This document shows, piece after piece, positions 18,547 to 22,277 of a stretch of DNA of 36,732 nucleotides. This DNA comes from Promethearchaeota archaeon (lineage in GTDB: Archaea; Asgardarchaeota; Lokiarchaeia; Sigyniarchaeales; SOKP01). Each line of letters starts with the position of its first letter. The stretch's first letter is position 1. The notes beneath the pieces are model-generated. The model saw only the letters and a program-made list of their open reading frames with translations, was not told the DNA's origin and searched no databases. The stretch covers positions 1 to 36,732 of the forward strand of contig SDNY01000028.1 in NCBI GenBank assembly GCA_004524535.1, read 5' to 3'. A program made the translations under genes and the position numbers.

Positions 18547-20169
<1,623 letters not shown>

Positions 20170-20265: not shown

Positions 20266-21804
20266 TTATTTCTTTTTAACTTTCGGTTTCTTATTCTCAA
20301 TTCCTTCTTTTATATCTTTACTAATTTTAATTTCTTCTTGTTCTGGTTCTTCTTTTTTTACTGGTTTAGATTGATCTAGTGGTGATTCACATACCCAACA
20401 TAAATTTTCCAAATCACTTAATGCTCTTGCACATTTATCGCAATATATAGAGTCACATTCGGGGCAAATAAAAACGTTAAATCCAGATGGTTCTCCCTTA
20501 CACACCAAACATACCTTTTTATCTCGAAAAACAGAAACGTCTTCTTCAAGGGCATCGATAAATTCACCTACTTTTTCTTCATTTACTATTAACATATCCG
20601 CATCAATCCTAAAATCAAATTTATCGGCCCATTCGAAGATTTTCTCGCTAAATACTTCTTTGTCCATTTTTAACGCCGTTCTCATCATGTCAAGATTAAT
20701 CCGGTCAGATACTTTAACCATTCGCTTTACTTTTTCAATTGACCCTTCATCAAATGAGTCCCGTTCTTTCACGGGGTAATCTGGAAAATCCTTAATAATT
20801 CTCTCTTCAATTAAATACTGCCCTAATTTTATTGCTTTTTCATAATTTAAATTGAAAGATATTATTAAATCGTATAATGTTGGTGAAGGAAATTGTTTTA
20901 TAACTTGCTCTGCGTATTTTTCTAATTCTTCTATTTCTTCCTTCTTATAACTTATACGTTGATCAATGATTTTAAAATAATTCCTGATTTCGTCGATTTT
21001 AAAATCTAATTCATGGAGCATGTCAACCTTATTAGCTTTCCTCTGATTATCATATTCAAATTTTAATACTCTTTTAACTAACTTGCAATCTTCATAATCA
21101 TCTTTAATAGGAAAATTTGGAAAATCATTAATCCAGCCTTCTTTTATTAAATAGTTCCCAAGTTTTACGGCCTTTTCAAAATTTAAATTTAAAGATATTA
21201 TGAAGTCATATAAGGATGGCGTAGAAAATAATTTAATAACTTGATCTACAGAATTTTTTAAGTCTAATTCATCTCCCTTATTGTAACTTATATTTTGATT
21301 AATTATTCTAACGTATGTTGCTATTTCAGATATGGAGAAGTGTAATTCATCTGCCATCTCAGCTTTTGTAATTGGTCTCTGATTAGCAAATTCAAACTTT
21401 AAAACTTTTCTTACTAACTCATAATCTTCCTTGGTTATTACCTTATCTTGATTTATATAACAATATTCTACAAGAAGTTGAGCATTATTTCTATATTTTT
21501 TCCCAAATTTATTTACAACCCAATCGAAAACTGGATTCTCAGAGAGATAAATATTTTTAAGGTTTATTAAGTTCTCTAAACCCTGAATTTCTTTTATATT
21601 ATTATTTTGTAATGATAAAGTCTCTAAATTCTTCAAATTATCGAGTCCGGTAATTTCATTGATTAAATTACCATCAAGATATAATTTTTTCAATGAAGAT
21701 AATTCATCTAATCCCTTTATTTCCTTAATACTTTTAATTTCTAGGAATTCTAATTTTAATGATTCTTTAGCTACGTAGTTTTTTCCGTTATACTTTACCG
21801 ACAT
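20266..21804 (-). CDS. LRR protein with duplicated module, winged-helix-like domain and RING-like zinc finger
   Basis: A 512-residue multidomain protein. Residues 20-95 hold about three leucine-rich repeats (LKKLYLDGNLI, LETLSLQNNNI, LKNIYLSENPV). Residues 125-234 and 239-346 are a tandem duplication: both contain an LVxxVLKFE...NQR segment, then SPTLYDxIISxNLNxEKAxKLGxYLI, then DFPxxPxK. Residues 356-420 look like a winged helix of the PCI type (LDMMRTALKM...EKIFEWADKFDFRIDADMLIV). Cys432, 435, 447, 450, 455, 458, 469 and 472 give a CX2C-X11-CX2C-X4-CX2C-X10-CX2C cross-brace like a RING. The tail is rich in Lys and Glu. The combination is reminiscent of Asgard ubiquitin-type or scaffold proteins, but the function is not proven. 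Confidence 0.75.
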   Translation of the reverse strand: MSVKYNGKNYVAKESLKLEFLEIKSIKEIKGLDELSSLKKLYLDGNLINEITGLDNLKNLETLSLQNNNIKEIQGLENLINLKNIYLSENPVFDWVVNKFGKKYRNNAQLLVEYCYINQDKVITKEDYELVRKVLKFEFANQRPITKAEMADELHFSISEIATYVRIINQNISYNKGDELDLKNSVDQVIKLFSTPSLYDFIISLNLNFEKAVKLGNYLIKEGWINDFPNFPIKDDYEDCKLVKRVLKFEYDNQRKANKVDMLHELDFKIDEIRNYFKIIDQRISYKKEEIEELEKYAEQVIKQFPSPTLYDLIISFNLNYEKAIKLGQYLIEERIIKDFPDYPVKERDSFDEGSIEKVKRMVKVSDRINLDMMRTALKMDKEVFSEKIFEWADKFDFRIDADMLIVNEEKVGEFIDALEEDVSVFRDKKVCLVCKGEPSGFNVFICPECDSIYCDKCARALSDLENLCWVCESPLDQSKPVKKEEPEQEEIKISKDIKEGIENKKPKVKKK

Positions 21805-22067: not shown

Positions 22068-22277
22068 TTATGTTGTTCTGAATAACATACTTTTTTCTAC
22101 ATCATTTTCTGTATTGCATTTTGGACAAATCCAGAAATTTTCGCTCTTCTTGACTGAATTTATACATTTACTACATATGGCAATATCGCATATGCAATAA
22201 TGTAATTCATTAAGAGTTGCTTCAAAATTCTCATTACAGACGTAACAATTTGGGGGTAATGAATCTTCTTTTGACAT
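22068..22277 (-). CDS. Small RING-like zinc finger protein
   Basis: A 69-residue protein with eight Cys (11, 14, 28, 30, 35, 38, 51, 54) in the order CX2C-X13-CXC-X4-CX2C-X12-CX2C, as in a RING-type cross-brace; His26 might substitute for a Cys. There is no other domain. The neighbour on the same strand (LRR gene, 263 bases downstream) also ends in a RING-like finger. A TATA-like GTATATAAAAAC lies about 35 bases upstream. A role in a ubiquitin-like pathway or as a zinc-binding adaptor is an inference. Confidence 0.7.
   Translation of the reverse strand: MSKEDSLPPNCYVCNENFEATLNELHYCICDIAICSKCINSVKKSENFWICPKCNTENDVEKSMLFRTT

Follow-up and report, generated by a model that had tools for sequence, protein, structure and literature searches.

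What does an archaeal protein do that joins leucine-rich repeats (LRR), a duplicated module, a winged-helix-like region and an eight-cysteine, RING-like finger in a single chain? Such a protein is encoded on the minus strand at positions 20266..21804 of the window analysed here, a stretch of 36,732 nucleotides which makes up the entire contig C81 (SDNY01000028.1) in the genome of a Promethearchaeota archaeon (3.66 Mb, 99% complete). A preliminary description had reported this combination of parts and suggested a role in a ubiquitin-like or scaffold system. The open reading frame encodes 512 amino acids with coordinates exactly as first given, and its parts follow in the order LRR, module A, module B, winged-helix-like domain, C4C4 RING finger and charged tail; all features of this gene given below lie on the minus strand. 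A full-length model obtained by AF2 from the single sequence had a mean pLDDT of 37 and was unusable.

The LRR domain (residues ~15–94, 21523..21762) is of the short internalin/PP1R7-like type. It matched Pfam LRR_4 (PF12799) with an E-value of 1.2e-10 and 41.7 bits, above the cut-off of 27, and LRR proteins of the PDB with an E-value of 1e-24. In a search of NCBIfam internalin LRR matches alone were obtained, far under their cut-offs, and the sole match in a plasmid collection was again an internalin LRR.

The LRR is followed by two copies of one module, module A at residues 124–235 (21100..21435) and module B at residues 236–347 (20764..21099). The two copies share 60 of 112 residues (BLAST E 8e-40), so that the internal duplication proposed for residues 125–234 and 239–346 is real, whereas its description as near-identical was too strong for an identity of 54%. 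The nucleotide identity is 69%, with 29, 26 and 48 changes at the first, second and third codon positions, respectively, and this excess at the third position argues for a coding sequence under constraint. A third-position excess was also seen between the finger and its paralogue. A weak match of module B to Pfam DEP (residues 320–339, E 0.0045) was under the cut-off and spanned just 20 residues, and a DEP identity was rejected. PDB profile searches with the module and with the winged-helix region gave no convincing match. Homologues of the module occur in other Lokiarchaeia as a single domain between WD40 or TPR repeats and a TIR domain, a single copy is also found after LRR (L172) and after TPRs (L170), and in L181 and L182, membrane proteins from a different family of the order, the module stands directly ahead of a RING-like finger. 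The Lokiarchaeial WD40-module-TIR and TPR-module-TIR proteins (L106–L109, L171, L179) resemble the 512-aa protein in that the module (33–36% identity) follows a repeat sensor and precedes a C-terminal effector; they differ in having a TIR and not a RING as effector and one copy of the module as compared to two. The sensor-linker-TIR layout of such proteins (L106, L107, L108, L171, L179) has in itself an immune-like look.

An alignment of 14 sequences (A7) revealed that the region at residues ~353–424 (20533..20748) is a real conserved domain, which is C-terminal in at least 13 other open reading frames of relatives, among them LRR, VTT-membrane, PPC and other proteins. No solved structure was matched by this region. 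We call it winged-helix-like on account of the pattern HHH-EE-H in a low-confidence model.

The finger (residues 432–472, 20389..20511) has its eight putative zinc-ligand cysteines at residues 432, 435, 447, 450, 455, 458, 469 and 472. Their arrangement, C-x2-C-x11-C-x2-C-x4-C-x2-C-x10-C-x2-C, corresponds to the spacing of the four ligand pairs of a RING. In an alignment of 46 sequences (A8) seven of the ligand positions are Cys in 45 to 46 sequences, and the second is Cys in 42 and His in three. Directly downstream lies a conserved motif P-x-D-x-S-K-P-V (residues 473–482, 20359..20388) with an invariant Asp477 and a Lys/Arg at 480. The AF2 model calculated with the 46-sequence alignment had a pLDDT of 86–89 in the core, and its best Foldseek matches in the PDB were RING/E3 domains, namely TRIM37 (3lrq, probability 1.00), Bmi1/Ring1b (0.99) and Rad18 (0.98), with further RING matches to MDM2, RNF4 and Lassa Z (rmsd 1.6 Å over 48 columns). 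Given the small size of the domain, the corresponding E-values reach only ~0.01. Fold matches in a viral library were likewise mostly RING proteins. At the sequence level, the profile of the finger matched RNF4 (E 5.8e-7) and, over the full length, the C4C4 RING of TFIIH p44/Ssl1 with its eight cysteines (E 6.5e-5); the latter protein differs in that it belongs to a transcription/repair complex, lacks LRR and has no ubiquitin gene context. Comparison by hhalign with a few RINGs of the same genome and of a ubiquitin cluster of another Asgard class yielded a probability of 96.5 (E 1e-9). No Pfam RING model passed its cut-off for the finger, zf-RING_5 reaching 11.6 bits against 27.9 and the others also staying below. 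We conclude that the finger is a RING with a predicted cross-brace fold, as had been supposed from its eight cysteines.

This finger type is present on about nine proteins of the genome. Seven further open reading frames share the C-terminal ~80 residues at 49–58% identity and carry a multi-span membrane region in their N-terminal part, and a more distant copy is found on a long surface-protein reading frame. In many other Lokiarchaeia the finger is likewise mostly the tail of proteins with multiple membrane spans; in relatives it is also found at the end of TPR proteins (L105, L117), of a membrane protein with a predicted beta-propeller (L118) and of others. Named relatives come almost all from Candidatus Lokiarchaeota/Lokiarchaeia MAGs, plus Sigynarchaeum, in agreement with the Asgard origin that had been thought probable. 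Strong matches (E<1e-15) were obtained in 14 of 31 sampled genomes of the family. Stand-alone fingers of ~70 aa with C-x2-H as first pair were also seen (L143:2391-2609, with equivalents in L140, L147, L148 and L149), in a neighbourhood conserved across the family. One finger lies on a contig labelled Bathyarchaeota (L098, WJJB01000455.1), possibly a misbinned Lokiarchaeial contig.

Genes for ubiquitin-like proteins, E1 and E2 were sought in the same genome and all were present, together with JAMM proteases. They form two ubiquitin-like/E1/E2/JAMM clusters on contigs C123 and C181, and a third E2 is encoded on C24. The C123 cluster consists of a ubiquitin-like protein, E1, E2 and JAMM; the reading frame of its E2 is broken in this assembly (split gene at L033:3740-4311, G000:C123) and is uninterrupted in a close relative (L152). 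The C181 cluster encodes a ubiquitin-like protein ending in GGF, E2b, E1b and JAMMb. In E2b (L034:1226-1786 and orthologues, alignment A11) the catalytic Cys region is kept, and loop 7 reads WS(R/L)LSD in all eight orthologues as compared to WSPA.

The 512-aa gene itself is not beside ubiquitin-like, E1, E2 or JAMM genes, those for E1 and E2 being on contigs other than C81, and the linkage described here is a property of the finger family. Comparison of homologues in Asgard genomes showed relatives of the finger encoded next to ubiquitin, E1 and E2 genes. Among 11 family genomes with an E1b orthologue (65–100% identity) a finger gene lies within 5 kb of E1b in eight, where 0.2 would be expected (P ~3e-13); one of the three loci that have no nearby finger is close to a contig end. 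The finger gene is often directly upstream of, and co-oriented with, the gene of the Gly-Gly ubiquitin-like protein (L060, L082, L091, L093, L094, L130). Across the family (f1), E1b is present in 11 of the 14 genomes with strong fingers and in none of the 17 others (P 4e-6, uncorrected for phylogeny). The gene of the closest paralogue in the same genome (58%, C123) and a proteasome beta gene lie next to each other in divergent orientation, ~4.5 kb from the ubiquitin cluster; this pairing is also found in a congener (L046/L152), and fingers are near other proteasome genes in L085 and L145. Between this ubiquitin cluster and the proteasome beta gene lies the gene of a 690-aa protein (L033:7857-9929, G000:C123) with a C-terminal RING near the Pfam cut-off. 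The spacing of this RING is almost that of the finger, with His as ligand 5, and it is among those matched by hhalign. In another Asgard class (G139) a membrane-RING reading frame follows Ub-Ub-E1-E2-JAMM and starts one base past the JAMM stop. Tandem-finger proteins were also noted ~4 kb from E1b/JAMMb in Lokiarchaeota Zod_Metabat.1055 and in Sigynarchaeum (L103, L104).

The ubiquitin-like, E1, E2 and JAMM genes of the same genome and the linkage in relatives thus bear out the suggestion that the protein is part of a ubiquitin-like or scaffold system. We consider it likely, if by no means certain, that an expanded family of RING proteins serves Lokiarchaeia as E3 ligases of an Asgard ubiquitin-like system, and that the 512-aa protein belongs to it as a soluble member guided by its LRR. 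Direct support comes from its domain content, from the RING fold of the model and from the co-occurrence and adjacency of the finger family with ubiquitin, E1, E2 and JAMM genes. E2 binding, ligase activity and the choice of target by the LRR we infer. The LRR, the two adaptor modules and the winged-helix domain would select or position a target, and the C-terminal C4C4 RING would hold an E2 charged with the Gly-Gly ubiquitin-like protein for transfer to that target. In most members the RING would be carried by a protein with several membrane spans, at its cytosolic end; in the 512-aa protein the LRR sensor would take the place of the membrane part.

The main alternative, which we regard as unlikely yet worth weighing, is that the finger is a RING-fold docking or dimerisation module devoid of catalytic function, comparable to the C4C4 RING of p44 in TFIIH or to Bmi1 as one partner of a RING heterodimer, and that the LRR protein is a scaffold through which membrane or sensor proteins reach the machinery of ubiquitin or proteasome, and which passes no ubiquitin itself. 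In ligase RINGs a Pro is usual at the position after the seventh ligand. In the finger the CPxC Pro is absent and this position, between ligands 7 and 8, is occupied by Trp in all 46 sequences. The residue after the eighth ligand (position 473) is variable, being N, E, G, D, S or others and K in two of 46 sequences, and the linchpin Arg/Lys is therefore missing; a conserved Lys/Arg is found seven residues further on. The Trp in place of Pro and the missing linchpin Arg together make a non-catalytic RING possible. The best fold matches include Bmi1, which by itself is hardly active, and the best sequence matches include p44, whose C4C4 RING is structural; both point in the same direction, as do the canonical RING candidates elsewhere in the genome, which could be the real ligases. 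On the other hand, the position between Cys1 and Cys2 that contacts the E2 is strictly hydrophobic (Val in 42 and Ile in four of the 46 sequences), finger genes lie directly beside those for ubiquitin, E2 and E1, and the changed loop 7 of the linked E2b could mean a matched non-standard pair. The loop in question faces the RING (WSRLSD for WSPA), and we speculate that finger and E2b may have diverged together as such a pair.

The known archaeal case bears on this point. For srfp, the small RING E3 of the ubiquitin operon of Caldiarchaeum subterraneum, the linchpin Arg is essential for activity (PMC5654768). Like the finger, srfp is an archaeal RING encoded with ubiquitin, E1, E2 and JAMM/Rpn11 and has a hydrophobic residue between the first two ligands (PMC5654768). 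In contrast, srfp is small and has a helix Trp and a linchpin Arg needed for its activity, both of which the finger lacks at those positions, whereas the finger is C4C4, multi-copy and fused to LRR, TPR, beta-propeller or membrane domains.

The module, the winged-helix-like domain and the finger occur in other combinations, so that the 512-aa protein is a shuffle of pieces each of which is used elsewhere as sensor, linker or effector. One might accordingly suppose that widespread modules were fused here recently and by chance, and that the gene has no fixed function, since all four parts are known in other combinations and a search with the module in 83 genomes of the class found the exact architecture in this genome alone. 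We think this improbable: the eight cysteines and the conserved positions of the finger are all kept, the third-position excess seen in both comparisons, of the two module copies and of the finger with its paralogue, indicates selection on the protein, and a fusion of module and RING arose also in L181 and L182, which belong to a different family of the order. Least probable of all is that the finger is of FYVE, B-box or C1 type, binding lipid or protein at membranes with an incidental ubiquitin linkage: most paralogues are indeed membrane proteins and there are weak Pfam matches to C1_2, the ANCHR B-box and FYVE, all under their cut-offs, but the best 50 PDB fold matches are overwhelmingly RINGs with no such fold among them, the FYVE basic signature R-x-x-H-H-C-R is not in the sequence, and the E1b linkage and the co-occurrence across genomes argue against coincidence.

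Returning to the ligase reading, its layout has counterparts in eukaryotes, where LRR-RING ligases such as LRSAM1 carry a recognition LRR at one end and a RING at the C-terminal end. The likeness of LRSAM1 to the 512-aa protein is one of layout and extends to these two ends; the linker modules and the winged helix of the 512-aa protein are Lokiarchaeial. With LRR and RING in one protein and relatives of the finger beside ubiquitin, E1, E2 and protease genes, Lokiarchaeia probably have a family of many substrate-choosing ubiquitin ligases, as eukaryotes do. It is conceivable, although we hold this with some doubt, that a eukaryote-like E3 repertoire arose here by domain shuffling, in which one C4C4 RING, paired with a specialised E2 whose RING-facing loop changed along with it, was placed on membrane receptors, TPR, beta-propeller and LRR sensors. 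In the 512-aa protein the RING would then take the place of the TIR of WD40-module-TIR proteins and turn recognition into ubiquitin-like tagging.

RING ligases in archaeal ubiquitin operons are already known (PMC5654768, PMC6043591). The archaeal ubiquitin systems known so far have been described with one or two small RING proteins, and attention has been drawn to the contrast between only two in Caldiarchaeum and hundreds of eukaryotic E3s (PMC6043591). Against the one or two known, about nine proteins of a single Lokiarchaeial genome carry one RING type on differing recognition or membrane parts. If these are ligases, domain shuffling would have begun to diversify E3s in the archaea most closely related to eukaryotes, or would have done so there in parallel. 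In the open-access literature searched, which misses many journals and supplements, we found neither the LRR-RING protein nor the expanded finger family of Lokiarchaeia described.

Finally, the gene adjacent to that of the 512-aa protein had been described as encoding a second, tiny RING-like protein. This 69-aa protein (22068..22277, minus strand) is real, single-copy and conserved, being present in 52 of 65 family genomes (40–85% identity). It is a separate C4C4 RING protein with CNOT4-type spacing and no paralogue of the finger. CNOT4/NOT4, a C4C4 RING E3, shares with the finger the eight-Cys RING, and some finger paralogues have, as CNOT4, C-x-C instead of C-x2-C at ligands 3/4; the finger of the window differs in having C-x2-C there and shows no specific relation to CNOT4. 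The neighbours of the 69-aa gene are other genes in the relatives examined, the conserved ones including those of a small membrane protein and of two proteins of ~162 and ~245 aa, and a link to the 512-aa gene was rejected. The nearest relative examined (L183), with an 85%-identical copy of the 69-aa protein, has other genes after it, so that the adjacency is probably incidental. On the plus strand at 18547-20169 the window encodes a secreted 540-aa protein with repeats of the DGxGGxIIxWxDxR type and a long Asp run ahead of its C-terminal membrane span.
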